The notes beneath the pieces were generated by a model that did not search any database, had not been told where the DNA came from, and was given only the letters and a program-made list of their open reading frames with translations. Made by a program: the position numbers and the translations under genes. A stretch of DNA of 38,135 nucleotides from a virus: the IMG/VR virus record IMGVR_UViG_3300020735_000025, positions 1 through 38,135 of that record. The stretch is one strand, 5' to 3'. Positions within the stretch are counted from its first letter, which is position 1; each line of letters begins with the position of its first letter. Below, piece after piece: positions 1-38,135 of this stretch.

Positions 1-18
1 CCCCGCCGCGCCCGCCAG
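1..18. repeat. 18-bp exact terminal direct repeat (left copy)
   Basis: The first 18 bases (CCCCGCCGCGCCCGCCAG) are identical to the last 18 (38118-38135). This is what a circular or circularly permuted assembly gives when the overlap is not trimmed. It is short for an assembly overlap, so a real terminal structure is not excluded. Joining the two ends through one copy gives an uninterrupted non-coding region and closes a small reading frame that starts at 38029. Confidence 0.8.
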
Positions 19-20
19 TG

Positions 21-80
21 CTTGAGGTTGCAAAGGTTCGCTCAATGTTTCACGTGGAACAATAGCGCCCTTGAGGTTGC
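21..80. repeat. 11-bp direct repeats flanking the parS-like site
   Basis: CTTGAGGTTGC occurs at 21-31 and again at 70-80, in the same orientation and 49 bp apart. The parS-like palindrome (46-61) lies between them. They may be binding sites for another protein or traces of a duplication. No function can be assigned from sequence alone. Confidence 0.7.
46..61. promoter_or_regulatory. parS: parS-like centromere site (ParB-binding palindrome)
   Basis: TGTTTCACGTGGAACA read on the other strand is TGTTCCACGTGAAACA, which fits the chromosomal parS consensus TGTTNCACGTGAAACA at every defined position. In bacteria ParB loads as a CTP-dependent clamp at this 16-mer and spreads along the DNA for segregation by ParA. 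With 15 defined positions, a chance match in 38 kb on either strand is very unlikely (roughly 1 in 10,000 or less). The site is intergenic, upstream of terL. No ParA- or ParB-like protein is encoded here, so any ParB would come from the host or another element. The site is directly visible; its function is inferred. Confidence 0.75.
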
Positions 81-86
81 CCCCAG

Positions 87-99
87 TACCTACAATGTA
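87..99 (+). promoter_or_regulatory. Operator-like motif, copy 1
   Basis: TACCTACAATGTA with the small palindromic core TACA-A-TGTA. The same motif occurs at 252-270 and, inverted, at 37687-37705. All three are non-coding. This suggests binding sites for one phage regulator, for example the Xre protein at 34053-34235 or the TetR-like protein at 31434-31751. Confidence 0.4.
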
Positions 100-106
100 A
101 GCAATA

Positions 107-122
107 CCCCCAGTGCTGGGGG
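107..122. repeat. Perfect G/C inverted repeat
   Basis: CCCCCAG-TG-CTGGGGG: two perfect 7-base arms around a 2-base centre, or a 6-bp hairpin with loop GTGC. It is followed by C-rich sequence and not a T run, so it is not an intrinsic terminator. Possible roles are a packaging-site structure or a protein site. Confidence 0.6.
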
Positions 123-145
123 CTCCCCCCGCCCCGCCGCCTCCC

Positions 146-170
146 TAAGTAAGTAAGCGCTAACTAACTT
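146..170. repeat. 24-bp imperfect palindrome with stops in all three forward frames
   Basis: Bases 147-170 form a near-palindrome centred on AGCGCT, with two mismatched symmetric pairs. Its left arm, starting at 146, is TAAGTAAGTAAG, which places TAA in all three forward frames. Its right arm puts TAG in two frames on the other strand. It therefore insulates translation and could also be an operator or recombination site. Confidence 0.5.
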
Positions 171-251
171 TGGTAGCCCCTGGGCCATCCCCCCGACGGG
201 GTGCGTTTTCGCGGCGGCCCGCCCGCCAAACTGCGCATAGTTACAATCCTT

Positions 252-270
252 TACCTACATTGCATGTATA
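252..270 (+). promoter_or_regulatory. Operator-like motif, copy 2, upstream of the terL promoter
   Basis: TACCTACATTGCATGTATA matches the inverted copy at 37687-37705 at 17 of 19 positions. It contains TACAT/ATGTA arms around TGC and ends 11 bp before the -35-like element at 282, a suitable place for a repressor or activator of terL transcription. Confidence 0.45.
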
Positions 271-281
271 TCGCTAAGTGC

Positions 282-309
282 TTGTAGTCACCAAGAGTTC
301 CGCTATACT
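282..309 (+). promoter_or_regulatory. Sigma70-like promoter for terL
   Basis: TTGTAG (282-287), a 16-bp spacer, then TATACT (304-309). The predicted start of transcription falls at about 316-317, that is on or next to the ATG chosen for terL. Two other promoter candidates in the window (7546 and 29241) also use a 16-bp spacer. Found by inspection only. Confidence 0.4.
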
Positions 310-316
310 GACCCTC

Positions 317-2308
317 ATGTCACTATCTAACGAAGCTATCCTCAAGGCCATCAGCACCGACAGAGCGCTCGGTTCAGCGATGTTGTTCAACCATCGGCAC
401 CGTCAGGCTTCGCCACCGTTCCATATTTCAATCATGGATTTGTGGGCGAGTGCCGATGAGAATGTGTGTATCGAGGCTTTTCGAGAAGGGGCAAAATCCA
501 CACTCTCGGAAGAGTTCTTGTTGATGGAAGCGGGATTTGCCAACTTTAAGTATTGCTTGATCTTTGGTGAGACCTACACCAAGGCTTGCCAACGACTCTC
601 AGCAATCAAGCATGAGATTTTGACCAACGGGAAATTAAAGCAACTGTTTGGGGATTTGAAGGGAACAGTTTGGGCTGAGAACAAAATCTTATTTACAAAC
701 GGGGTACTTCTTGAGGCTCACGGTTGGGAAGAGGAAATTCGAGGCTACAAACACTTTGACATGCGCCCTGACCGCGCTTACCTTGATGACATTGAAAATT
801 CGGAGTCGGTGCGCGATACGTTCACGGTAGATAAGAACTGGAAAAAGATTCACCTCCAGCTTATGCCTGCCATGGACAAAGAGTTTGGGAAGATCCGAAT
901 TACTGGCACACCGCTGGCTGACGATTGTTTGATCACACGGGCGCTTAATTCCCCTAGCTGGGTAAGTGCAAAGTTTCCGATCTGTGACCGTGATATTGAT
1001 GACCCAGCCGCCCAGTCACTGTGGCCTGACCGTTACCCGATGGAATGGATTAGGGAAAAGCGGGATCAATACGCCAGAGAGGGCATGCTGCGGGAATTTA
1101 TGCAAGAGTACATGCTGATCGCGGCAGGTTCTCAAGGTAAACCGTTTACTGAAGAAATGATTGCGGTAGCGGATATCGCGCCCACCACGTACAGTCCCAA
1201 GGTTGTGATCATGGACCCGGCGCGTACTGTGGAAGTGAAAAAGTCTGACCAAACGGGTACCGTCACTGTGTCCCGAATGGGGACAACAATCTACGTTCAT
1301 GAGTCCGGTGGTCATTATTGGCAGCCGGATGAGATCGTGCGGGGCGCGTTTGAAATGAGTGAGCGCCATGGGGATGCCGAAGTGGTCATTGAGAAAAACT
1401 CATTGGATGACTGGCTCTTGCAACCAATCCGCGCCCACTCGCTTACTACGGGTAAACACCTAGATATTCGCCCAATCAACGCCCCACAAGATCGGGATAA
1501 AGCGCAGTTCATCATGGGATTGCGTCCGTTTTTCATTGCGGGGGACATTATCTTGGTTGGTGGCCGCGCTAAACACCAACAGCTCATTAGCCAGATTTTG
1601 AACTTCCCATCAGGTAAGCGAGATATCTTAAACGCCTTGGCCTACTCACTTCGAGTGTTCTCTGGGGTGCCGGTCTATGGTGACTTTGGCCAGGCAAACA
1701 TTGTGCAAGACGCAGAGTTAAATCGCCGTGACGCATTGCTTCTGGCTTGCAACGCTTCGGGCACTGAAACCACAGCATGCTTGGTGGCGGTCAATGGCCG
1801 TAACCTTACAGTGCTGGCCGACTGGGTGTCACCATTGATGCCAAACGATGCCATCCCCGATGTGGTCGCTTTGATTCGAGCGGTCTATCCTGGGCGTAAA
1901 GTCACGACTTGGGTACCGGCCGATGTGTACGATCAGGTAGGGCGAAACCCATTGATCAGTGCGCTCAAGTCATCAGGATTTACCCCTAATCGGGCTGAGA
2001 ACGCCATCATGAGCAGGTCGGCGCTCAGCCCCATGATCCGTACTGAAATGAATGGGCGGCGCATGTTTCAAGTCGATGATCGCGCTGAAAACACATTGAA
2101 GGCGTTGTCGGGCGGTTATCACTGGCCAATCAAGTCGGGTGGTGAGCGCGGAGCTGAACCGCAAAGAAATTCAGCAAAAACATTAATTGAGGGTTTAGAG
2201 GCATTGACCTTTGCTATGAATCAGCCTGATAATCGGTTATCAAAGACAAGTGCAAATGCTGTAAACTCCACTGGAACCCCTTACTTGAGCGCTTTACCTA
2301 AACGATAA
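317..2308 (+). CDS. terL: Terminase large subunit
   Basis: The packaging motor ATPase and headful/end nuclease, 663 aa from the ATG at 317. A Walker A-like FREGAKST is at about residues 55-62, Walker B AYLDDIEN at 154-161. An RNase H-like nuclease follows, with MDPART (Asp about 300), an IEKN segment and RDILNA (Asp about 436). Roughly 200 further residues (about 465-660) look like a second, degenerate RNase H-like unit, which makes the protein longer than most TerLs. The frame is also open from a GTG at 278, but neither start has a Shine-Dalgarno sequence and the ATG coincides with the predicted transcription start. The stop overlaps the portal start by one base, and the gene opens the late region. 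Confidence 0.9.
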   Translation: MSLSNEAILKAISTDRALGSAMLFNHRHRQASPPFHISIMDLWASADENVCIEAFREGAKSTLSEEFLLMEAGFANFKYCLIFGETYTKACQRLSAIKHEILTNGKLKQLFGDLKGTVWAENKILFTNGVLLEAHGWEEEIRGYKHFDMRPDRAYLDDIENSESVRDTFTVDKNWKKIHLQLMPAMDKEFGKIRITGTPLADDCLITRALNSPSWVSAKFPICDRDIDDPAAQSLWPDRYPMEWIREKRDQYAREGMLREFMQEYMLIAAGSQGKPFTEEMIAVADIAPTTYSPKVVIMDPARTVEVKKSDQTGTVTVSRMGTTIYVHESGGHYWQPDEIVRGAFEMSERHGDAEVVIEKNSLDDWLLQPIRAHSLTTGKHLDIRPINAPQDRDKAQFIMGLRPFFIAGDIILVGGRAKHQQLISQILNFPSGKRDILNALAYSLRVFSGVPVYGDFGQANIVQDAELNRRDALLLACNASGTETTACLVAVNGRNLTVLADWVSPLMPNDAIPDVVALIRAVYPGRKVTTWVPADVYDQVGRNPLISALKSSGFTPNRAENAIMSRSALSPMIRTEMNGRRMFQVDDRAENTLKALSGGYHWPIKSGGERGAEPQRNSAKTLIEGLEALTFAMNQPDNRLSKTSANAVNSTGTPYLSALPKR

Positions 2309-4467
2309 TGGCTAAAAAGAAACCTGAAATCCAGAAAGTCGATAGCCCAGCAATCGAAAAAGACAGCGTTGAGAAAAAGGACGTAGAGAATTGGGCCGAT
2401 AAAAAGGACTCAGATATTTACGAAAAGTGTGAAGGCTTTTACAAAACCATCCAGCAAGCGTATAAAAATCGTGAAGAAGCAAATGAAGCCATCGTTGAAT
2501 ATTGGAACATCTACAATGCTCAACCTGATACAAATCAACAGTATGTGGGTAATTCGCGCTGTTATATTCCGGCCGTACGTGACGCTATTAACGCTCGTTC
2601 AAAGCGTGCTTTAAAACAGTTATTCCCCAACAAATACACCCACGTTGAAGCGGTCGGTTCTGATCCACAAACACCGGGACCACAGTTATCGCTTCTCGAG
2701 CATTACATTCGCAGCACTAATCTCAAGTCGGTTGTTCGTTCGATCTTGATCTCTGGCGATGTGACCGGCCAATGGAGCCTATACATCGATTGGAAGCGCA
2801 ATTACAAAACAATTACGGATTTCATTCAGCGTAACCCTGTCCTGGAAACAGTTGATGGTGAAACGCTTGAGATGGAAGATCCAACAGATTTGGAAGAGTC
2901 TGAGCAAACCAAAGAGATTTTAGAAGAGGGTCCAGATATTGTGGACGTGGCCACAGAAGATTTAGTGGTGATTCCTCCAACTTCAGCAAGCGTTGAAAAA
3001 GCCGACATTACTTGCATCAAGCTGCGCATGTCCAAAGACCAAGTGCAAAAGATGATTGATGAAGGTATTTTCTCATTGGATCTTGAAGCCAAAGGTGAGC
3101 TCTCTTCTTGGATGAGCGATCGCAAAGGAAGCGAACATTCAAACCCACAGAAGGCTCGTACTTCTGACGCTGGTGTTAAAACTGAAGGCACTTTTAAATA
3201 CGCTTTGATCTATGAGGCGCACGTTCGCCTTGAGTTTGAAAAGGGTAAAAAAGAACTCGCCTACGTTTACTATGCTGGTGAAAATGAAATTATTGGCATT
3301 ATCAAAGCTCCACAATGGGGTCAAAAACGTCCTATTCTTTCAGCTCCAGTAGATCGTTTGAGCGGATCGTTTAACGGTATATCCAAGATTGAAGCCGTCA
3401 AGTTCTTACAGTGGAACTTAAACGACTTTTGGAATATGGGTCAAGACTCAGCGATGTACTCATTGCTCCCAGTGGTAATGACCGATCCTGAAAAGAATCC
3501 AAACTACGCCATGATGGTGTTTGGTTTAGCTGCCGTGTGGCCGGTTGATCCAAACTCCACCAAATTCCAATCCTTTCCGCAATTGTGGAAAGACTCGGTT
3601 CAAATGTGTGGTGCGATTGAAGCGCGCATTCAACAGTCCTTAGAGTCTAATGAAGCGATGATGGGTAAACAGTCTGGCAAGAAAAACGCTCAGGCTATTG
3701 GCGCCCAAATGCAAGAGCAATCCGTAGCGATTGTCGATCACGCTGAACGCTTTGAGGAAGAGATACTAAACCCATTGATGGAGCGATTCTTTGAATACGA
3801 TTGCCAATTCCGTGAAGATGATATTTCTATTCTAAACATTGGTGAATTGGGAGTTAAAGCTACTATGCAAGAAGTACCTCCAAATCAATGGGGTCAACGT
3901 TACTTCTTCCAATGGACCGGCACTTCATTCGTAATGAACATGCAGCGCATGCAGCAACAGATCGCCACCATGAACGTATTGCGTGGTATTCCACCGCAGC
4001 AACTTAACGGTCGTCGCCTTGACATTACTCCAATACTTGACACTATGGTTGAGAATGTCTTTGGCCCAGAGTTGGGTAATCAGATTTTGATTGATGATCG
4101 CAACAAGTTCACGATTGCTCCTGAAATTGAAGATGAGATGATGGTTAATCATATTCAAGTTGATGTTCATGAGGCAGATGATGATGCTGAGCACATTAAG
4201 CAACACGCTCAAGCGGGTCAGATGTCTCAAGATCCAACTGGTATGATTCGCGCCCATATTCAAAAACACATTGAGCAGTTGCAGAAAAAACGTCAAATGG
4301 CGGCACCGCAACAACCTCAAGGTCAACAAGGTGTTCCAGGTGGTTCAGGTCCCGGTGTAGCCGGAACTCCACGCATGGGTGCTCAACCGCAAATGCCGCG
4401 CCCTGGCCAACAACCCCCTGGTGCGATTCATCCTGACGTAATGCCTGGTGGTCAACCTAGAGGTTAA
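2308..4467 (+). CDS. Portal (head-tail connector) protein
   Basis: 719 aa, next to terL as is usual for portals. The N-terminal 40 residues are highly charged. A long mixed alpha/beta body contains conserved-looking podovirus portal segments (GNSRCYIPAVRDAI near residues 80-93; an acidic segment near 180-205). The C-terminal 80 residues are rich in Gln, Pro and Gly (repeated PQ/GQ), probably flexible. It would form the dodecameric ring at the capsid vertex through which DNA is packaged and ejected. Translation is coupled to terL by the one-base stop/start overlap. Assigned from position, size and general appearance. Confidence 0.85.
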   Translation: MAKKKPEIQKVDSPAIEKDSVEKKDVENWADKKDSDIYEKCEGFYKTIQQAYKNREEANEAIVEYWNIYNAQPDTNQQYVGNSRCYIPAVRDAINARSKRALKQLFPNKYTHVEAVGSDPQTPGPQLSLLEHYIRSTNLKSVVRSILISGDVTGQWSLYIDWKRNYKTITDFIQRNPVLETVDGETLEMEDPTDLEESEQTKEILEEGPDIVDVATEDLVVIPPTSASVEKADITCIKLRMSKDQVQKMIDEGIFSLDLEAKGELSSWMSDRKGSEHSNPQKARTSDAGVKTEGTFKYALIYEAHVRLEFEKGKKELAYVYYAGENEIIGIIKAPQWGQKRPILSAPVDRLSGSFNGISKIEAVKFLQWNLNDFWNMGQDSAMYSLLPVVMTDPEKNPNYAMMVFGLAAVWPVDPNSTKFQSFPQLWKDSVQMCGAIEARIQQSLESNEAMMGKQSGKKNAQAIGAQMQEQSVAIVDHAERFEEEILNPLMERFFEYDCQFREDDISILNIGELGVKATMQEVPPNQWGQRYFFQWTGTSFVMNMQRMQQQIATMNVLRGIPPQQLNGRRLDITPILDTMVENVFGPELGNQILIDDRNKFTIAPEIEDEMMVNHIQVDVHEADDDAEHIKQHAQAGQMSQDPTGMIRAHIQKHIEQLQKKRQMAAPQQPQGQQGVPGGSGPGVAGTPRMGAQPQMPRPGQQPPGAIHPDVMPGGQPRG

Positions 4468-7335: not shown

Positions 7336-7539
7336 ATGACTTTAATTAGACATTGCATTGTCGATACAACTACCAATACAGTATTCAGTATTATTGAATA
7401 TGAAACTGTGCAAATAGGAGTTCCTCCAGGTTTAGAATCAACATTATTGTGTATTCCAAGCGAAACAGGACAAATTGGTGGAACTTACGCTAGTGGGGTA
7501 ATTACAAACCCTCCCGCCCCAGCAATACCAATTTTATAA
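7336..7539 (+). CDS. Small fibre-associated protein
   Basis: 67 aa, starting HCIVDTTTNTVFSIIEYETV and ending Pro-rich (NPPAPAIPIL). Short proteins opening with such a two-strand IVDT-x-N-xV-x-N/SIIEY pattern are common just after phage fibre genes, where some act as fibre assembly or tip proteins. It follows a GGAAAAATT ribosome site, 9 bases after the adhesin gene. Function is inferred from position only. Confidence 0.6.
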   Translation: MTLIRHCIVDTTTNTVFSIIEYETVQIGVPPGLESTLLCIPSETGQIGGTYASGVITNPPAPAIPIL

Positions 7540-7545
7540 ATTTAG

Positions 7546-7573
7546 TTGACCGATTCGTCATTAGTGCTAAACT
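7546..7573 (+). promoter_or_regulatory. Sigma70-like promoter before the capsid genes
   Basis: TTGACC (7546-7551), a 16-bp spacer, then TAAACT (7568-7573). It lies in the 75-bp gap between the fibre cluster and the gene at 7615, which suggests separate transcription of scaffold and capsid genes up to the terminator at 10536-10561. Confidence 0.45.
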
Positions 7574-9103: not shown

Positions 9104-10519
9104 ATGAAACTCGTAACATTACTTAAAAGTTTACTTAGCCCGGGCGTGACAAACTACTCTCCTGGCGCCGGTGGTCAAACTATCGCCAACGACATTGAAT
9201 TGCATATTCAAGACGAAGTTTTACGTCTTGCGCGGCGTCAATTAGTTGCTTATCAATTCGGTCAACCACTGCGTATTGAAAAAAATACTGGTGTGACATA
9301 CACGGCTACTCGTTATGAGCGTTTACCGTTGCCATTCGCGCCATTGTCCGAAGGCGTACCTGCTGCTGGTGAGTCGATCTCGATCGCTCAAGTTAGCGCA
9401 ACCGCTCAGCAATGGGGTGACTTGGTTCGTGTGACCGACGTTGCAGATATGACTATCAAACACCCATTGTTTAAACAAGCAATTCGTTTGATCGCCTTGC
9501 AACAACCTGAAACCATTGAGCGTAACGTTCTCAATATCCTCATGACTGCAACTCAAGTCAACTACGCAAACGGTAAGGCCAACCGCGCCTCATTGTTAGC
9601 TACTGACGTGAATAGCCCAGTTGAAATTGGTAAGATCGTCGGTGCTTTAGAGACCTTCGGTGCTCCAACTTTCATGGGTGATGAGCGTGAAGATATGAAG
9701 ATCGACATGGACGGCAAAACTAAAGCTAGTAATAGCCCAAGCGTGATGCCTCACTATGTTGCATTGGTTCACCCATTAGTCGTTCAAGATTTACGTCAAA
9801 ATAGCACTATTGCTACTGCGTGGTCCTACTCTGACATCAATCGTCTGTATAACAGCGATTTGGGCGAATGGGGTGGAGCACGTTTTTGCAAATCCAATAT
9901 GATTCCTTATTGGACAGGTGTTGCTGCCGTTAGCGGTACAGCTTCATCTTCAGGCGGTACATTAGCAACTGGTACGTACTATGTTCAAGTAACTGGTGCT
10001 CCTGCTGCTACTTCCGTTGAGCAAAAAATCTATCAAGTGTCTGGTTCAATTTCTGTGACAGGCCCAACAGGCTCAATCTCAGTAACCGTTCCAACTTTGG
10101 CAGGTTATGTATTTAACGTTTATGTTGGTACTTCTGCTGCTCCTAGCAACCTTGGTCTATCTGCTTCTGGTCCTACTTCTGGTCCTTTAGCCGGTAATGC
10201 AACTCAGTTGACCTCTGGCTCAACCGTTGTGATCACAGGTGTTGGCGCAGCTCAAACTCCTCCTGCTGCTCCTGCAACTGGCGTAACTGTATTCCCAACT
10301 TTCTATTTTGGTACAGACGCTTACGGTCAGGTGTTGCTCGATGATGTTGAGTACCACTATTTGCGTGATGCAGACAAGTCCGATCCACACAACCAGACTC
10401 GCGTTGTTTCATGGAAGATGATGTACGGCACTATCATCCTGAACAATGCTTATTTGGCTCGTACTGAATCGGGTAGCGCATTTACACCAGGCTACACTGC
10501 TGGTACAGCGGCCGAGTAA
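9104..10519 (+). CDS. Major capsid protein, N4-gp56 type with inserted domain
   Basis: 471 aa from the ATG at 9104 (ribosome site AAAGGACTTATC). An in-frame start at 9050 lies inside the scaffold gene and is unlikely. The N-terminus (SPGVTNYSPGAGGQTIAND), a central ATQVNYANGKANRASL-like helix region and the C-terminal TRVVSWKMMYGTIILNN segment resemble HK97-fold capsid proteins of the N4-gp56 family. Between about residues 280 and 392 lies a Ser/Thr/Gly/Ala-rich block of beta strands (GTYYVQVTG; YVFNVYVGTS) that looks like an Ig or fibronectin III-type insertion, probably surface-exposed. A terminator follows. Confidence 0.85.
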   Translation: MKLVTLLKSLLSPGVTNYSPGAGGQTIANDIELHIQDEVLRLARRQLVAYQFGQPLRIEKNTGVTYTATRYERLPLPFAPLSEGVPAAGESISIAQVSATAQQWGDLVRVTDVADMTIKHPLFKQAIRLIALQQPETIERNVLNILMTATQVNYANGKANRASLLATDVNSPVEIGKIVGALETFGAPTFMGDEREDMKIDMDGKTKASNSPSVMPHYVALVHPLVVQDLRQNSTIATAWSYSDINRLYNSDLGEWGGARFCKSNMIPYWTGVAAVSGTASSSGGTLATGTYYVQVTGAPAATSVEQKIYQVSGSISVTGPTGSISVTVPTLAGYVFNVYVGTSAAPSNLGLSASGPTSGPLAGNATQLTSGSTVVITGVGAAQTPPAAPATGVTVFPTFYFGTDAYGQVLLDDVEYHYLRDADKSDPHNQTRVVSWKMMYGTIILNNAYLARTESGSAFTPGYTAGTAAE

Positions 10520-21768: not shown

Positions 21769-23118
21769 ATGAGCAAAAGACTACTATTAATTGATCCCGC
21801 CTCTAACTGCCTCGATATGGCCCTTAGAGCCCAAAACGCCGGATGGGACGTTAAATGGTACGATGCTCCCCGTAAAGACGGTATGCCTCGTTTAGCTGGC
21901 AAGGGCATGATTGAAAAAATCAGCAACTTTAGTGAGATCACACGCAAATGGATGGATTGGGCTGACCTAATCTACCTACCCGACAATACTCGCTGGCTTG
22001 ATATGTTAGAGCCGTATCGCCTTAAAGGTTATCCAATTCTTGCCCCTTCGGCTGAAGCTGCAAAACTAGAGACTGATCGCGATATTGGCCAAAAGGCCAT
22101 GGCTAAAGCCGGTATTCCCATCATGTCGTCTAAAGCGTTTCATGACTACAACGACGCTATAGCTTTCGTTAAAAAGAACCCAGAGTTCTTGGTGTCTAAA
22201 CCTTCAGGCGACGCCAACAAAGCGTTGTCATACGTGGCTTCAGATCCCGCTGATTTAATCTACATGCTTAGTCGCTGGGCTCAGCGTGATGATCTGCGTT
22301 CTGCTGCTAAGAAAGATGGATTTATTCTTCAAGAGCGCAAATACGGCATTGAAATGGCGGTAGGTGGTTGGTTCGGTCCCGGAGGCTGGTCTAAGTGGTT
22401 CTATGAGAACTGGGAATACAAGAAGCTCATGGACGGAGATTTAGGTGTGGCCACAGGTGAAATGGGTACGCTTAGCCGTATGACCAAGCGTTCTAAGTTA
22501 GCTGAGCAAGTACTACTTCCAATCGGTGAGACTTTGGCTAAGTTAGGTTACGTTGGCTACATTGATAACAATTGCATCATCGATAAAGATGGTCCTTGGC
22601 CAATGGAATGGACCATGCGTGATGGCTGGCCAACTAAGCATAACGTCACTGCTCACATCAAAAACGAAGATCCAATTCAATGGCAACTTGACTTGGTGAA
22701 TGGCAAGGACACGATTGAGGCAATCGATAATGAGGTTTGCGTAAGTATCTTGATGGCGCTCCCAGACTTCCCATACTCAAAAATCACCAATAAAGATCTT
22801 TGCGGTATTCCGATCCGTGGCGCCGAAGATTATTTAGGTAAAGTTCATTTATCTGAAGTTATGATTGGCACCGCGCCCACAATGGTTGGCGATAAAGTAG
22901 TGGATTTACCAGGTTTAGTTACGGCCGGAGATTACACGCTGATTGTGACCGGCACTGGTGACAATATCACTGCTGCTCGTCGCACTGCCTACAACGCAAT
23001 TAAAAAGATCAAGATCCCAAATAATCCGTTTTATCGCCTTGACATTGGCGCGGGTAGAATGAAAAAACAATTACCAGAATTGCATAGAATGGGTTACGCA
23101 AAGGGTTTGGAGTTCTAA
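21769..23118 (+). CDS. PurD-like ATP-grasp protein (divergent GARS homologue)
   Basis: 449 aa, about full GARS (PurD) length. The N-terminal domain (LLLIDPASNCLDMALRAQNAG), ATP-grasp region (LAPSAEAAKLETDRDIGQKA near 91-110), DGDLGVATGEMG at 222-233 (the GARS DGD-x-GPNTGGMG block), YVGYIDNNCIIDKDGPWPME to 280, and a C-terminal domain (DYTLIVTGTGDNITAARR) align with phosphoribosylamine-glycine ligase. The GARS E-x-N-x-RFGDPE signature is here EWTMRDGWPT: the Glu is kept, but Asn and the substrate loop are changed, so the native reaction is doubtful. It is expressed with late virion genes, suggesting another ligase role, for example on protein or DNA. Confidence 0.7.
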   Translation: MSKRLLLIDPASNCLDMALRAQNAGWDVKWYDAPRKDGMPRLAGKGMIEKISNFSEITRKWMDWADLIYLPDNTRWLDMLEPYRLKGYPILAPSAEAAKLETDRDIGQKAMAKAGIPIMSSKAFHDYNDAIAFVKKNPEFLVSKPSGDANKALSYVASDPADLIYMLSRWAQRDDLRSAAKKDGFILQERKYGIEMAVGGWFGPGGWSKWFYENWEYKKLMDGDLGVATGEMGTLSRMTKRSKLAEQVLLPIGETLAKLGYVGYIDNNCIIDKDGPWPMEWTMRDGWPTKHNVTAHIKNEDPIQWQLDLVNGKDTIEAIDNEVCVSILMALPDFPYSKITNKDLCGIPIRGAEDYLGKVHLSEVMIGTAPTMVGDKVVDLPGLVTAGDYTLIVTGTGDNITAARRTAYNAIKKIKIPNNPFYRLDIGAGRMKKQLPELHRMGYAKGLEF

Positions 23119-23649: not shown

Positions 23650-24574
23650 GGTTTCGCATACGGAACCATTCGCCGCGCCGAGCATTGGCAATCGCATCAA
23701 TCACAGGGTAGTCTAAAGGCTTATAGCCAGTGCGAATTACGTAAATATACGGATTGCGCTTAATGTAATTTTCGCGAACCAATCGATTCATAAAGCGGTT
23801 TTGACTAGGTAAACGCACCTGGCCAGGGAACAAATCCATTCGTAAGTAACGCTCATTATTAGGCATTGCTGGTGTGGCTAACAGCATATTGTAAAAGTAA
23901 AGAAGATCAGGATCTTCAGGCTCAATAATAGGTGTGTAGCAGTGATAGCGGTTATATACGTTATGTAACCCTCGACCATTAAGAATCGTGCGTAACTGGC
24001 GATCATCAATACCCGTAATTGCCTCGATCTCTTTTGCTTCAAATACGGCAACTTTATCTCTAGCTCTAAAACCTGAGTAATCTAATGCGGCCTCAAGCCT
24101 TGGCGGTAAATCTCGACCCATGAGGCATTGAATTAAAGTAAACAATGTGTAATGGACATTGCTAGTTGGGTTCTTGTATTCAATCGTGTGCTCATGGAGG
24201 TTCCAAGTTGGTGGCCGATAAATAACAGCTTCGCGTTCAATCTCAGAACTCAGTCGTTCAAACTCCATGCAAGCTAAAGGGGCTTCAGTAAATAATGCCG
24301 CCTCTGCTGCAATTTGTTGAGGGTTTACTGGAAAATGACGATACAAAAGCATGCCACCTTCTTCGCGCCAAAAATCAACGCTCTTTTGAAAAAATGGGTC
24401 CCATTCCCGAGCCAATACCATCGGTATGTCTTTGACTTCATTAAGGCGAAGTGGGATCTTGCGTTTATTCTTTTGAGTGCAATAAACCACAAAGCGATGG
24501 TTGCGCAAATACATTTCGCGTACTGCTAACTCCATGTGCTCAGTTTGATAAATATCAAGCATAGCCCACGTCAT
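23564..24574 (-). CDS. Unknown protein coupled to the DNA polymerase gene
   Basis: 336 aa (332 if the ATG at 24562 is used; both starts overlap the polymerase stop). No family recognised. The sequence is rich in aromatic and charged residues, with compact segments such as LYFYNMLLATPAMPNNERYL, PSQNRFMNRLVRENYI and PVIDAIANARRGEWFRMRNL. Residues about 185-210 (FEAKEIEAITGIDDRQLRTILNGRG) could be a winged-helix or HTH-like unit. As the last gene of the replication operon, overlapping the polymerase, it may be a replication partner. Its 3' end overlaps the convergent gene for 86 bp. Confidence 0.65.
   Translation of the reverse strand: MTWAMLDIYQTEHMELAVREMYLRNHRFVVYCTQKNKRKIPLRLNEVKDIPMVLAREWDPFFQKSVDFWREEGGMLLYRHFPVNPQQIAAEAALFTEAPLACMEFERLSSEIEREAVIYRPPTWNLHEHTIEYKNPTSNVHYTLFTLIQCLMGRDLPPRLEAALDYSGFRARDKVAVFEAKEIEAITGIDDRQLRTILNGRGLHNVYNRYHCYTPIIEPEDPDLLYFYNMLLATPAMPNNERYLRMDLFPGQVRLPSQNRFMNRLVRENYIKRNPYIYVIRTGYKPLDYPVIDAIANARRGEWFRMRNLIDQAPEYPLVQCFEDETQLEPSESEPT
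23650..23667 (+). other. Hairpin just after the late-region stop codon
   Basis: GGTTTCG (23650-23656), loop CATA, CGGAACC (23661-23667): seven pairs including one G-T, directly after TAA at 23647-23649. No T run follows, so it is not a standard terminator. It may help end or protect the late transcript, and it lies within the opposing coding sequence. Confidence 0.35.
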
Positions 24575-26339
24575 TAAGAATAGATTGCGCCTCTTTGATG
24601 TACCAGTCGTAGTTTATATCGGGTGGTAAAGCCGAGGGTAATTCCATTAAAGGAAAGGCCCCATCAGATCGAGCAACTTTATTGTTATTAGCTACATAGC
24701 GGATTGAACGCTCTTCATTTTTGCGATAGTACCAACGAACAGCTTTACCAAGATATTGCTCATCATATTTCGCTCCACCATTAACTTGGCGAATTGTAAT
24801 GAACTTACGTACATCCGAACATCCCATAACTGTGGTGGGTATGGGAGTTCCAGCTTTTAAATATTCAATCACGGCTTCAACACAAATTGTATTAGTGGCG
24901 TTCTTTTGCATACCTGCTGGAGCGTAAAGACCTTTCAGTTTCACCTCCCCTTCAGGTTTGATCGCAATATAGTTGTTTACGTCCTTAGAGTACAAGGCGC
25001 GATAATTAGTTTCCTCAGTATTAAATCCTGTGATCATTTCCCAATAAGTGATTACCGCATTAAGGTCATCAACCCTAGATTCATAACCTTTGATCACTAT
25101 TCCGTCCGTATTAGCGCTCACTACAGTAAACCCAGCAAGTTCAACATTTTCAATCAGCATGAGAAGCGCAAGTTGACCAGTGACAGTAGTTTGAATTAAT
25201 AGATCGGGAGAATAGAGAACTGACCACTTGCTACCAAATTTACCAAATGATCCATTAATCATAATCTTCATAGCTTCATTGGTAACTTTATCGCCAGTGC
25301 GTTTAGCTTCAATACGTTGTGAAACAATACCCTGATAAACCTCAAGGAAGGCTTCGCCCATGTGAGCTGGATATAAGCTCTGATTCAAAATGATTGAAGG
25401 ATAGTAACTGGTTACGTCGCGATCTTTTAAAAATACGCCCGCATTAGAGATATGGGAGCTACATGACTCATTACTATGTAAACCACCAATTCCCATAGTG
25501 TAAGTACCAGAGCCAATCCGAATACGCATAGACTCAAAAATTTGAGGCAGTTCAACAGAACCTTTTTCATTAATAGTGAATGTTGCATTTTTAATGATCT
25601 CCAATACTTGATTCATGCCGGGCGCGGTAAAACTAACGAATGAGGGAATACGATACTTAAAGCTGTAATCAGGGCTAATATCAGGGCGGTAAATCTTACG
25701 GCCAACTTTCTTTTGCACCTCTTGACGAATCACCGCTTCGGCAATCTGAGCGTCAGACTTAGAACGTAAGTCAATATTGTATTTTGCGCTCATGGCCACA
25801 CGCAGATCAATCTGAGGCTTGAGCTGACGGTACATGTCGATTGTCGTATTCAAATCATTGATACAGTAATCTTTAATCACTGGGCGATCAGCAGGCTCAA
25901 TATTTTGAAAAGGATCAATAGGTAAGTCTTGCAATCGCTGTGAGTGCATACGCCCACCATAGAGTTTCAAGCCAACCATTCCAGGGGCAACTTCAATAAG
26001 ATCAATGTGATCGGGGTTAAATTCAGCACCGCCATACATTGTCTCTAATTCCCAAGGGCGCATATTCTCAACAATAATTGAGTCACTAGCTTTCTTTAAA
26101 TACTCATTATCAGCATGAGCAAAGAAAAGCCGTAGTAAAGGAATATCGTAATTAATGCCGTTAAAGCTAATGAGTTGTTTCGTCGTAAGACTCGTCTTAA
26201 TGCGCTCATAATCAGGTTCTATTCCTGGATAAAATTCGTAGGCTTCAATTTGACCTGAGTAAACATTCTTGAGTGCTATCAAGAAATAATTTCGATAGCA
26301 CTCAAGGTCAAACACCCAAACTGGTGGGACTGGGATCAT
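24555..26339 (-). CDS. DNA polymerase, family B, with 3'-5' exonuclease
   Basis: 594 aa, short for family B. The exonuclease is complete: Exo I DLE (Asp11/Glu13), Exo II FNGINYD (Asp65), Exo III YCIND (Tyr158/Asp162). The linker GIGGLHS lies near 284. Polymerase motif A DVTSYYPS has Asp308, motif B KIMINGSFGKFG begins at Lys358, and motif C is SANTDG at about 408-413, where the first of the usual two Asp is Asn410 and Asp412 remains. The thumb-type KDVNNY motif follows. This is the replicative polymerase. There is no obvious terminal-protein gene. It overlaps the SSB-like gene by ATGA. Confidence 0.9.
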   Translation of the reverse strand: MIPVPPVWVFDLECYRNYFLIALKNVYSGQIEAYEFYPGIEPDYERIKTSLTTKQLISFNGINYDIPLLRLFFAHADNEYLKKASDSIIVENMRPWELETMYGGAEFNPDHIDLIEVAPGMVGLKLYGGRMHSQRLQDLPIDPFQNIEPADRPVIKDYCINDLNTTIDMYRQLKPQIDLRVAMSAKYNIDLRSKSDAQIAEAVIRQEVQKKVGRKIYRPDISPDYSFKYRIPSFVSFTAPGMNQVLEIIKNATFTINEKGSVELPQIFESMRIRIGSGTYTMGIGGLHSNESCSSHISNAGVFLKDRDVTSYYPSIILNQSLYPAHMGEAFLEVYQGIVSQRIEAKRTGDKVTNEAMKIMINGSFGKFGSKWSVLYSPDLLIQTTVTGQLALLMLIENVELAGFTVVSANTDGIVIKGYESRVDDLNAVITYWEMITGFNTEETNYRALYSKDVNNYIAIKPEGEVKLKGLYAPAGMQKNATNTICVEAVIEYLKAGTPIPTTVMGCSDVRKFITIRQVNGGAKYDEQYLGKAVRWYYRKNEERSIRYVANNNKVARSDGAFPLMELPSALPPDINYDWYIKEAQSILNDVGYA

Positions 26340-31437: not shown

Positions 31438-31751
31438 AAGTTAGACGCGGAGAAGAGGTACGAAAGTCCGAGATATTAGCGGCAGCATTAGAGCTGGCGC
31501 ATGACATCGGTTATCAGAAGATCACACGGGATGCACTTGCCATCAAGGCTTGTTGTTCAACGGGATTGATTACGACTTATTTTGGAACGATGAATCATTT
31601 ACGCCGCGCCATTATTAGTCATGCGATTGCTAAGCATGATCTACAAGTGATCGCCCAGGGCCTCACAGCCAATGAATCTAAAGCTCATCATGCCAGTGAA
31701 GAGCTTAAACGTGCCGCGATGGAACACACGCTCATGATGGGACAAGAATAA
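31434..31751 (+). CDS. Mini TetR-like DNA-binding protein
   Basis: 105 aa. The first 65 residues match the TetR DNA-binding domain: RKSEILAAALELAHDIGYQK, then ITRDALAIKACCSTGLITTY and FGTMNHLRRAII. The usual ligand-binding and dimerisation domain (about 120 more residues) is absent; the rest is a short charged helix. It therefore looks like a stripped-down regulator or one that uses another partner. It is co-translated with the nuclease and primase genes. Candidate ligand for the shared motif near the genome junction, but no site can be assigned. Confidence 0.7.
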   Translation: MKVRRGEEVRKSEILAAALELAHDIGYQKITRDALAIKACCSTGLITTYFGTMNHLRRAIISHAIAKHDLQVIAQGLTANESKAHHASEELKRAAMEHTLMMGQE

Positions 31752-34072
31752 TGCTACCTGCCGCACTTCAACCTTTAAATGCTTACCGGCAATTTATTGT
31801 CTATAAGCTCGTACCCAGCTCACGCCCAGGCAAGATGGATAAGATGCCAGTCGATTGGCGCACAGGTAATGTGGCCGACGCGCACGATCCAGCGATTTGG
31901 ACTGATTACGATACCGCTTATGCTTGCGGTAACGGCCAAGTCGGATTTGTCTTTACTGATAACGATCCGTTCTGGTTCGTTGATATTGATGAGTGCTTGC
32001 TACCTAGTGGTTGGTCGCCACTTGCTCAAGAGATATGCAACCTACTGCCAGGCGCAGCCATTGAAGTTTCCGTATCGGGACGCGGGCTGCATTTATTTGG
32101 TACCGGCCAAATTCCACCACATAAGACCCGTGGTCCATCGGGATCTGGGATCGAGCTCTATCACACGGGTCGATTTGTTGCGCTTGGCAATCCCGAAGGT
32201 ACTACCGGCAACGCCTTGCATGATTGCACCGCTGGCATTACCGAGTTAGTTAACCGCTACTTCCCTAAAACCGCTGAAGAGTTGCAAGAAGCTACTTGGT
32301 CATTGGGCCCCGTTGAAGAGTGGAGTGGTCCAGTTGAAGATGAGCAATTGATCTCCCATGCCTGCAACGTGAAGAGCTCAACCAGTGTATTTGGTTCTAA
32401 GGCAACATTCAAAGACTTATGGGCTGGTGATGCCGCCGCATTAGGTAAGTCTTATCCCGATGGTGCCGGTCGCCCTTACGATGAGAGTACCGCCGATGCT
32501 GCATTGGCTCAACATTTAGCGTTTTGGACAGGTAAAGATTGTGAGCGCATGAAGCGCTTGATGCTGGCTTCAGGGCTCAAACGTGATAAGTATGATCGCG
32601 AAGATTACCTGCCGCGCACTATTTTGCAGGCTGTGGCCAAACAAAAGGAAGTATGTAAATACAAGGCAGTTGAAGATAATAAGCTCGTTGTCAAAGCCCG
32701 TGATGTTGAAGGTGAGACCTATATTCATCCCGACGCGCAAAAGCTACTATTTGATGGTTGCGTCTATGTTTCTGACGCTCATGCCATTTTGATGCCGGGT
32801 GGTCACATGCTTAACCAATCGCGCTTTGATGCTATGTGCGGTGGTTATTCATTTGTACTCGATAAGAGCAATACCAAAACTACTAAATCAGCATGGGAAG
32901 CCTTCACGCAATCACAAGCCTTACGCTTTCCTAAAGTGCATGCTGGGGAATTTGTACCATCGCGCCCCGCTGCTGATATTTGGAGCCGTGGTAATCGGAT
33001 CTACGTCAATACCTACAGTGAAATCTCAACCCCTAGTAAGCGCGGCAACCCCACACCCTTCTTGCAACACCTACAAAAGATTCTCCCCAACGAGCATGAT
33101 CGTCAAATCATTCTGGCCTACATGGCCGCCGTCGTTCAATATCCAGGTGTTAAATTCAAGTGGGCGCCACTGATTCAAGGCGCTCCTGGTAATGGTAAGA
33201 CACTGCTGTCCCGCTGCGTTACTGAAGCGGTCGGGCGCGAATACTGCCACACGCCAAAGGCTAAAGAGTTATCGAGCCGCTTTAATGACTGGCTTGAGGG
33301 TAGAATATTCATTAGCGTTGAGGACGTATTCATTGGTGAGCACCAATCAGAGCTTGCAGAAGCCTTAAAACCGATGCTCACTGACGATTGGATCGAGATT
33401 GAGGGTAAGGGTGGGGCAAAAGCGTCACGGGCTGTTTGTGCCAACTTTATCCTCAACTCGAACCATAAGGATGCTGTTCGCAAGACCCGCGATGATCGCC
33501 GCTTAGCAGTGTTCTATTGCAAGCAGCAAACCTATGAGGACATTAAACGGGATGGCATGGCTGGTAGCTACTTCCCTGACCTGTATTCATGGCTTAAGCG
33601 GGACGGCTATGCGATTGTGACTGAGTACCTTCAGACTTATCCAATTCCCGCTGAGCTCAACCCAGCAGGTGATTGCCACCGCGCCCCCACTACTTCGAGC
33701 TTTGAAGAGGCTTTGATGGAGTCGGCTGGACGCTTAGAACAAGAGATTCAAAACGCAATTGAGAATGAACGGATCGGTTTTAGGTGTGGCTGGATTAGTT
33801 CACACTTCCTAGATGAGTTGATTAAGCAAGTAGGCGCGGAACGTCAATACCCACCCAATAAGCGCCGGGACCTACTCAAAGCTATGGATTATGTACCGCA
33901 CCCAGGGTTAAGTAACGGTCAGGTAAATAACGCGGTGAGCCCCGATGGATGCAAGCCGCGCCTATACGTCAAAGAGAATCATCCGAGCTTTAGTAAGAGT
34001 GGCCGGGTTGTCGCTGATCAATACAGTAGCGATCAAACCCAGCCATCCCACCTCAAAGCTGTGGCGGCGTAA
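31751..34072 (+). CDS. PrimPol-helicase (NrS-1-like primase with DUF5906-type helicase)
   Basis: 773 aa. Archaeo-eukaryotic-primase-like N-terminus with FWFVDID (Asp78/Asp80), SGRGLH (109-114, His114) and IELYHTGRFVALGN (134-147). The C-terminal superfamily 3-type helicase has GAPGNGKT at 477-484 and FISVEDVF as Walker B. This matches PrimPol-helicases such as NrS-1 that prime and unwind at an origin. Together with the family B polymerase and the helicase it gives a self-contained replication set. It overlaps the TetR-like gene by one base and its end overlaps the opposing Xre gene by 20 bp. Confidence 0.85.
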   Translation: MLPAALQPLNAYRQFIVYKLVPSSRPGKMDKMPVDWRTGNVADAHDPAIWTDYDTAYACGNGQVGFVFTDNDPFWFVDIDECLLPSGWSPLAQEICNLLPGAAIEVSVSGRGLHLFGTGQIPPHKTRGPSGSGIELYHTGRFVALGNPEGTTGNALHDCTAGITELVNRYFPKTAEELQEATWSLGPVEEWSGPVEDEQLISHACNVKSSTSVFGSKATFKDLWAGDAAALGKSYPDGAGRPYDESTADAALAQHLAFWTGKDCERMKRLMLASGLKRDKYDREDYLPRTILQAVAKQKEVCKYKAVEDNKLVVKARDVEGETYIHPDAQKLLFDGCVYVSDAHAILMPGGHMLNQSRFDAMCGGYSFVLDKSNTKTTKSAWEAFTQSQALRFPKVHAGEFVPSRPAADIWSRGNRIYVNTYSEISTPSKRGNPTPFLQHLQKILPNEHDRQIILAYMAAVVQYPGVKFKWAPLIQGAPGNGKTLLSRCVTEAVGREYCHTPKAKELSSRFNDWLEGRIFISVEDVFIGEHQSELAEALKPMLTDDWIEIEGKGGAKASRAVCANFILNSNHKDAVRKTRDDRRLAVFYCKQQTYEDIKRDGMAGSYFPDLYSWLKRDGYAIVTEYLQTYPIPAELNPAGDCHRAPTTSSFEEALMESAGRLEQEIQNAIENERIGFRCGWISSHFLDELIKQVGAERQYPPNKRRDLLKAMDYVPHPGLSNGQVNNAVSPDGCKPRLYVKENHPSFSKSGRVVADQYSSDQTQPSHLKAVAA

Positions 34073-34235
34073 CGCCGGTCATTAATAGGAAGAGATTGTA
34101 TTTAGCCTGGGGCATGTTACGTGTCCCAGCTTCCCACGCCTGCCAAGTAGATAAGGCTGCGCCTATCATCATGCCTGCTTGAGTTTGCGTTAAGCCTGAT
34201 TGCTTGCGCACTTCTTTAATGATTGATGGGGTCAT
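34053..34235 (-). CDS. Xre-family regulator (Cro/C1-type HTH)
   Basis: 60 aa, nearly all one HTH domain: PSIIKEVRKQSGLTQTQAGM, GAALSTWQAWEAGTRNMPQAKYNLFL. This is a minimal DNA-binding regulator of Cro/C1 type. It is last in the minus-strand early operon, overlapping the upstream stop by ATGA. It could control the divergent early and late promoters; the operator-like motifs at the junction are candidate targets. Alternatively it controls the helicase operon. No C1-like dimerisation domain is present. Confidence 0.8.
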   Translation of the reverse strand: MTPSIIKEVRKQSGLTQTQAGMMIGAALSTWQAWEAGTRNMPQAKYNLFLLMTGVTPPQL

Positions 34236-37335: not shown

Positions 37336-37623
37336 TTAAGCCGCCTCTCTTTTAGAAAACTCTAATCCGCGGATAAATGATTGCAGGTCGTTATATAGTT
37401 CCCGCTTAGTGCGTGTCCCCATTCCAACCGGAGTAGAAACGCCGCCGCCTTCATTACTCATACGGTGAACATTCACCCCACCATAAGCGTGATATAGATG
37501 AAAATTACCTACATTGGCCACGCTCTTATTATCGGTGCGTGTGTATGGTGTCATCGGGCTATCAGTCAGTTTATTAATGTAGTCAACTAATGACTCTAAT
37601 TGTTTCTCTGTGATACGTTCCAT
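37336..37623 (-). CDS. Conserved hypothetical phage protein
   Basis: 95 aa, first gene of the minus-strand early operon, with ribosome site AAGGAATC. MERITEKQLESLVDYINKLT, GNFHLYHAYGGVNVHRMSNE and GGGVSTP are typical of a widespread family of small phage proteins of unknown role that commonly opens early operons. The promoter at 37685-37714 lies about 60 bp upstream. A further copy of the TACCTACATTG motif occurs within its coding sequence (37506-37517). Confidence 0.7.
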   Translation of the reverse strand: MERITEKQLESLVDYINKLTDSPMTPYTRTDNKSVANVGNFHLYHAYGGVNVHRMSNEGGGVSTPVGMGTRTKRELYNDLQSFIRGLEFSKREAA

Positions 37624-37684
37624 AATCTTGATTCCTTGTTTTAAGTTAAATTAACTGTGAATTGGTGAAGCTGCTACAGTTCCT

Positions 37685-37714
37685 ATTATACATACATTGT
37701 AGGTAATGCAACAA
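37685..37714 (-). promoter_or_regulatory. Early promoter for the minus-strand operon
   Basis: Read on the minus strand: TTGTTG (37709-37714), an 18-bp spacer, then a perfect TATAAT (37685-37690). The operator-like motif (37687-37705) covers the -10 and most of the spacer, so a protein bound there would block it. Confidence 0.55.
37687..37705 (-). promoter_or_regulatory. Operator-like motif, copy 3, overlapping the early promoter
   Basis: TACCTACAATGTATGTATA on the minus strand. It matches the copy at 252-270 at 17 of 19 bases and its core is the near-palindrome TACA-N-TGTA. It lies within the promoter, a classic repressor position. Confidence 0.5.
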
Positions 37715-37826
37715 GTATCTTATAGGGATAAACCCTAATAGAATCCACCTCACACTTTTACGCACCTTACACCTTAAAGGGGTTCGAGTTGCCCGCTAAG
37801 CCAATAACTATAAGGGTTTAGTAGGG

Positions 37827-37962
37827 TTTTACCTTTTACCTCAGAGCCGCTATACCCCCTCCCCCTACCCACCTCCTACACCCCTCTACTACTATTATAT
37901 ATATCTTATATTCTATTATTTATAAAAGGTAAAAAGGTAAAAAGGTAATAGAGTAATAGAAT
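37827..37962. repeat. Iterons and inverted repeat, candidate replication origin
   Basis: Three copies of an 8-bp unit (A/T)AAAAGGT at 37923-37930, 37931-37938 and 37939-37946 lie between the perfect 9-base arms ATTCTATTA (37910-37918) and TAATAGAAT (37954-37962). A related unit, TACCTTTTACCT in the opposite orientation, is at 37830-37841. The strand is very AT-rich next to it. Repeats plus AT-rich DNA are typical of iteron origins. No function is shown. Confidence 0.45.
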
Positions 37963-38028
37963 CAAGGGGTTAGCTCACCTCATCGAACTTACCTCGAACT
38001 GTAAGAACATGAGAGTGTGAGGTAAACC

Positions 38029-38135
38029 GTGAGTGATCAACGTCAGCGTGAGGATTATCAGCACTCTAAGGCGGTGAGTGCTAATGAGTGGGTACGAACT
38101 ATCACCCCCAGTAATTGCCCCGCCGCGCCCGCCAG
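38029..38135 (+). CDS. Possible small protein crossing the sequence junction (partial)
   Basis: GTG start at 38029 after AGGTAAACC. It reads VSDQRQREDYQHSKAVSANE, WVRTITPSNCPAAPA and then leaves the window. If the terminal repeat joins the ends, it stops at TGA after about 37 codons (base 25). The sequence looks protein-like, but evidence is limited to start, ribosome site and composition. It could be chance. Confidence 0.25.
   Translation, partial: MSDQRQREDYQHSKAVSANEWVRTITPSNCPAAPA
38118..38135. repeat. 18-bp exact terminal direct repeat (right copy)
   Basis: Exact copy of bases 1-18. The element is pure G/C except for one A and resembles other C/G-rich patches at 129-144 and 210-227, so this part of the junction is richer in GC than the coding genome around it. 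Confidence 0.8.

Follow-up and report, generated by a model that had tools for sequence, protein, structure and literature searches.

An orphan chromosomal-type parS site between the early and late genes of a tailed phage: probable recruitment of host ParB

Why should a phage in which neither an integrase nor a partition gene can be detected carry, between its early and late genes, a site of the type read by the chromosome-segregation protein ParB? A preliminary description of this DNA, centred on positions 37,624–38,135, had pictured a self-replicating episome that borrows the ParAB system of its host. Of this proposal, the use of host ParB is an inference well supported by the comparisons given below, but the stable self-replicating episome is not supported. 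We favour the reading that the phage is of lytic type and uses parS to bring host ParB onto its own DNA, with the likeliest benefit coming during infection rather than from plasmid-like inheritance, and we give this reading a probability of about 0.5; the lifestyle itself is beyond what sequence alone can settle. If host ParB does load through an orphan parS, phages exploit the bacterial chromosome-segregation machinery, with consequences for the positioning, compaction and timing of phage DNA and for the persistence of some phages.

The window, by which we mean the whole stretch of DNA analysed here, is an IMG/VR virus record of 38,135 bp. Comparison of its ends reveals an exact 18-bp overlap common to both; a related sequence, G001, whose large terminase (TerL) is 98% identical to that of the window, is unbroken across the window's contig joint, and G001 has a separate 65-bp end overlap elsewhere on the map. 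It follows that the map is circular and that the window represents an essentially complete tailed phage genome of about 38 kb. Its annotated open reading frames (ORFs) encode structural and packaging proteins (large terminase, portal and capsid) together with a replication set that comprises a phage DNA polymerase, an SSB-like protein, an exonuclease, a helicase and an NrS-1-like primase-polymerase. Relatives of the polymerase and the primase-polymerase, at about 46–52% identity, are found in cultured phages, among them Acinetobacter phage Scuro, CAjan-like coliphages and phages of Klebsiella. Several cultured phages with a related replication module, the CAjan-like coliphages among them, are virulent.

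The preliminary description was right that no integrase is present: models for tyrosine integrases (PF00589) and serine recombinases (PF00239) find no match in the window record, and there is none among the annotated ORFs. The ParB_N model (PF02195) finds no match in the window or anywhere among ten phages of its group, and neither ParA nor a plasmid-type Rep initiator is present among the annotated ORFs of the window, in which no tRNA genes were found either. The window is an uncultivated bacterial virus with its own replication module and without a detectable integrase, partition gene or plasmid Rep. A PurD-like ATP-grasp protein is encoded in the late region (21769–23118), scoring 105 bits against the purD model, for which the cut-off is 288.

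Among 84,980 genomes, TerL relatives are confined to integrated Paraburkholderia prophages, at 58–59% identity, and a single Methylococcaceae MAG contig at 33%; the search for host strains carrying the phage, which the preliminary description had advised, thus yielded no close relative. A capsid search of 399 Burkholderiales genomes gave one strong match (61%), in the same Paraburkholderia genome as was found with TerL. No closely related plasmid was found in the plasmid collection, and no close TerL or capsid match among cultured phages. It is the related Paraburkholderia prophages that suggest Burkholderiales as the host order. These prophages (L049–L051) share the packaging module of the window, and one of them, L051, has by eye a ParB_N-like protein at 3439–4338. 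Another relative, G016, has an integrase, and lifestyle therefore varies across the wider family.

Early and late genes are separated by a single long non-coding region that is the control centre of the genome. As the preliminary description had recognised, this region is real and long; it runs across the circular joint and amounts to about 810 bp once the overlap is removed. Its features are listed in the table together with the genes referred to here.

Table. Positions of genes and control elements in the window (38,135 bp).
Feature	Position	Strand	Basis and remarks
Large terminase subunit (terL), first late gene	317..2308	+	Annotation
Phage DNA polymerase (phrog_1252)	24555..26339	-	Annotation
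TetR_N protein, 105 aa	31434..31751	+	Annotation; comparison with relatives
NrS-1-like primase-polymerase/helicase	31751..34072	+	Annotation
Xre/HTH protein, 60 aa, last gene of leftward early run	34053..34235	-	Annotation
Fourth exact operator-motif copy, TACCTACATTG	37506..37516	+	Within first early gene
Control region, right-hand part	37624..38135		Early promoter, operator O1, AT-rich origin-like segment; aligned with G001, G013, G003, G015
Early promoter -10, TATAAT	37685..37690	-	By eye
Operator O1, ACCTACAATGTATGT	37690..37704	-	In early promoter spacer between -35 and -10; starts at -10 edge
Early promoter -35, TTGTTG	37709..37714	-	By eye; 18-bp spacer; drives leftward early genes
Putative origin-like segment	37827..37990		AT-rich stretch, AAAAGGTA repeats, inverted TTTTACC copies, conserved AATCAA...ACCT...AACTTACCTCGAACT
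Inverted TTTTACC copies	37827..37841		Within origin-like segment
AAAAGGTA repeats	37924..37948		Within origin-like segment
Control region, left-hand part	1..316		parS, O2, palindrome, GC-rich dyad, late promoter; circular joint 38135/1
Chromosomal-type parS, TGTTTCACGTGGAACA	46..61		Pattern search; homologous site in G001 and G013
Operator O2, ACCTACAATGTAAGC	88..102	+	Right of parS
Near-palindrome, 24 bp, AAGTAAGTAAGCGCTAACTAACTT	147..170		Candidate site for TetR-like protein
GC-rich dyad, GACGGGG core	173..235		Upstream of terL; candidate packaging signal (cos/pac)
Operator O3, ACCTACATTGCATGT	253..267	+	Upstream of late promoter
Late promoter, TTGTAG (282-287), 16-bp spacer, TATACT (304-309)	282..309	+	By eye; directly before terL ATG at 317

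Both promoters were assigned by eye, on the strength of a perfect or near-perfect -10 hexamer and of conservation, the late hexamers being unchanged in alignments with G001 and G013, the latter a further relative. A strict consensus promoter scan calls neither of them, and both are weak by consensus. The terL ATG lies 7 bp past the -10 hexamer TATACT (window 304–319), a spacing which suggests that the late transcript is leaderless. The 24-bp near-palindrome, which the preliminary description had overlooked, is almost unchanged in G001 and G013. The GACGGGG-core dyad is kept in most relatives, integrase-bearing and integrase-less alike; it is seen in L003–L025 and in the Paraburkholderia prophage L051 (about 9890–9970), in the same place before terL.

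One element of the original proposal does not survive closer inspection. What had been taken for iteron-type repeats is one array of the 8-mer AAAAGGTA, with 3.1 copies in the window and about two in its relatives; three poorly kept 8-bp repeats do not make a plasmid-type iteron array, and an episome with iterons in the form first described is rejected.

The parS site, on the other hand, is real. It belongs to the same control region but lies across the joint, outside the interval 37,624–38,135. It matches the 16-bp palindrome pattern TGTTNCACGTGNAACA exactly and has one mismatch against the chromosomal consensus TGTTTCACGTGAAACA; for a genome of the size and composition of the window, the expected number of exact matches to the pattern is 0.0002. 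At the homologous place G013 carries the perfect consensus, and G001 carries TGTTTCACGTGGAACG, in which the outermost base is changed. The site has thus been kept in both while the flanking DNA diverged, the changes being restricted to a tolerated inner position and the outermost base, and each of the three genomes has a single site. Searches of the window, G001 and G013 for tyrosine integrases and serine recombinases, as for ParB, gave no match. From these alignments we conclude that parS is conserved by descent and is not a product of chance. It is absent from the wider relatives G003, G015 and G016, and must therefore have been gained or lost within the group; nor, therefore, is it essential to the family. 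Neither a conserved 20-mer nor one of the early proteins, when used to look for further members of the parS-bearing clade, led to a new control region beyond those of G001 and G013. One parS-less relative, L004, has a 22-bp repeat, CATATCGACCAGTAGCGCGCCA, present in 4.3 copies at 7459–7553, near the place that parS occupies in the window; this is a candidate for an alternative protein-binding array.

The likely reader of the site can be sought in the chromosomes of the suggested host order. The identical 16-mer is present in 14 of 60 Burkholderiales genomes, and its reversed control in none of the 60. In one of them, a 2.0-Mb genome (G124), contig C1 holds four copies, located at 71, at 2074 and near 1.956 Mb, the placement expected around oriC. 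Because three phages without ParB have retained a chromosomal-type parS, and because the same 16-mer serves as a chromosomal parS in Burkholderiales, we conclude that the phage site probably recruits the host segregation protein ParB.

The same arrangement recurs in other viral contigs. Two parS variants are each found in at least 120 IMG/VR contigs, compared with 1 and 5 for two scrambled palindromes, one of which retains CACGTG; this is an excess of at least 24-fold. Among the matches listed, 44 of the 49 parS contigs of at least 30 kb have no ParB_N, and 41 of the 49 have no tyrosine integrase. Of the sites, 48% fall outside ORFs of at least 100 aa, whereas 17% of random positions do so, and in eight of ten contigs checked the closest large ORF had a match to a phage family, portal, terminase and capsid included. 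We regard this pattern as a strong lead, in which some contigs may be misassigned host DNA or carry chance sites within genes. The contigs concerned (L125–L361, for example L155, L190, L192 and L200) are mostly without ParB, and L190 and L192 have several parS sites each, near terminase or capsid genes. When the parS contigs were compared with the window proteins in a shared-gene test, weak matches were obtained together with one of 47% to the early protein g37336; in L327, the contig that gave it, a small ORF contains the parS site. A plausible, if tentative, generalisation is that orphan chromosomal-type parS is a widespread cis-element of phages lacking both ParB and integrase, through which host ParB, and perhaps SMC, would be recruited in lytic infection. 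The window group would then be a compact example, with parS set between early and late promoters.

These data also bear on whether the site could be accidental, or be read by some other protein that binds CACGTG. Matches with up to three mismatches are not rare (0.23 expected), and the wider relatives lack the site, as an accident would allow. The very low expectation for an exact match, the retention in three phages with diverged flanks, and the specific excess of parS over scrambles, even over the one that keeps CACGTG, nevertheless lead us to consider such an accident very improbable.

Beside parS, the control region contains a second recurrent element, absent from the preliminary description. 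New here are four exact copies of a palindromic motif, TACCTACAWTG, of which one adjoins the early promoter, one parS and one the late promoter; all four are near the control region, and 0.045 copies are expected in the window. Most relatives for which upstream DNA is available have variants of the motif in the late position, with a CAWTG core. It had been advised that an operator controlling the early promoter be looked for, and O1, in the spacer between the -35 and -10 hexamers, is a putative operator of this kind.

Two regulators could be considered as readers of this motif. The Xre and TetR-like proteins named in the preliminary description both exist, and both are encoded outside the interval 37,624–38,135, the Xre gene 3.4 kb from it. 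In G001, whose operator is that of the window, Xre shares 98% identity with the window protein; in G013, whose operator differs, it shares 77%. For the TetR-like protein the identity is 98% with either relative. Since Xre diverges where the operator has changed and the TetR-like protein does not, this comparison, mainly through one discriminating pair, points to the small Xre protein as the reader of TACCTACAWTG. The TetR-like protein is accordingly disfavoured in this role, and its site may be the 24-bp near-palindrome. The Xre gene seems to be the last in an operon driven by the promoter that its product probably controls, a position better suited to a Cro-like or feedback regulator than to a classical prophage repressor. 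The HTH part of Xre also matches the XafT family (NF040522), weakly, at 38.6 bits against a cut-off of 70. Integration by exploitation of Xer, as in elements of the XafT/TLC type, was considered for this reason and rejected, the best dif-like attP in the window agreeing at 18 of 26 scored positions, where simulated sequences reach 16–19.

We envisage the following scheme. A palindromic operator occupies the spacer of the leftward early promoter and another copy accompanies the rightward late promoter; the 60-aa Xre protein would bind these sites and restrain early and late transcription in a feedback or Cro-like manner. Host ParB, loaded at the phage parS in the form of CTP-dependent sliding clamps, would spread across the control region and the putative origin. 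The gain during infection could lie in placement or compaction of the genome through ParA or SMC, or in the timing of the two flanking promoters. It is also conceivable that parS serves only as a decoy, titrating host ParB and so disturbing segregation, or only as a transcriptional switch, in which spreading silences the early and late promoters on either side until replication dilutes ParB. In favour of such a role, parS is centrally placed in the control region, with O2 26 bp away and the late -35 hexamer at a distance of about 220 bp. One site in each genome would, however, titrate ParB poorly before the late stage of infection, and we think it quite improbable that parS has such a role alone.

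The main rival to ParB recruitment in infection is partition in a carrier state, in which Xre would silence the phage, the circular genome would replicate slowly, starting in the control region, and the ParAB proteins of the host would segregate this phage-plasmid via parS. We favour recruitment in infection because Rep, ParA and ParB were not found in the window, iterons are not what the repeats represent, and the replication genes are of lytic type and resemble those of phages known as virulent. Neither a closely related plasmid nor a genomic relative beyond the prophages and MAG contig described above was found, although such an absence weighs little. The Xre gene, moreover, sits at the end of the run that it appears to restrain, and most other large parS contigs are likewise without integrase and ParB; taken together, these points make a carrier state unlikely. 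It would, for its part, account for a parS in a phage that has neither ParB nor integrase, for operators at both main promoters and for the circular maps of the window and G001, and some integrase-less phages, such as Lacachita, are thought to be maintained extrachromosomally (PMC10286716). Partition of a dormant episome is thus possible, and we retain recruitment of host ParB during infection as the preferred reading.

The window phage can be compared with several known systems. A literature search, with many subscription papers outside its reach, gave no report of phages with chromosomal parS alone. The sites of chromosomal ParABS (Spo0J) systems are the same 16-bp palindrome and are clustered in Burkholderiales chromosomes, whereas the window phage has a single site and no parAB. 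Phage-plasmids, such as those like P1 and the genus of Staphylococcus phage Lacachita (PMC10286716), resemble it in having no integrase, a circular map and a partition element; P1, however, encodes ParAB and Rep itself, and Lacachita has a gene of ParB-like type, whereas the window phage has the site only. Phages with a lone ParB gene are discussed in the same Lacachita paper (PMC10286716). Acinetobacter phage Scuro and Shewanella phage SppYZU01 have NrS-1-like primase-polymerases that are 49–52% identical to that of the window, but their structural module is unlike. A precedent in the literature searched is a mobile element that steals a plasmid ParABS system: SGI1 carries parS-like copies that exploit the ParABS of IncC plasmids (PMC10954446). 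The phage would resemble it as a mobile element whose parS is read by the ParB of another replicon, but SGI1 is an integrative mobilizable element that parasitises a plasmid ParB, whereas the window phage carries a site of chromosomal type and brings its own replication genes.
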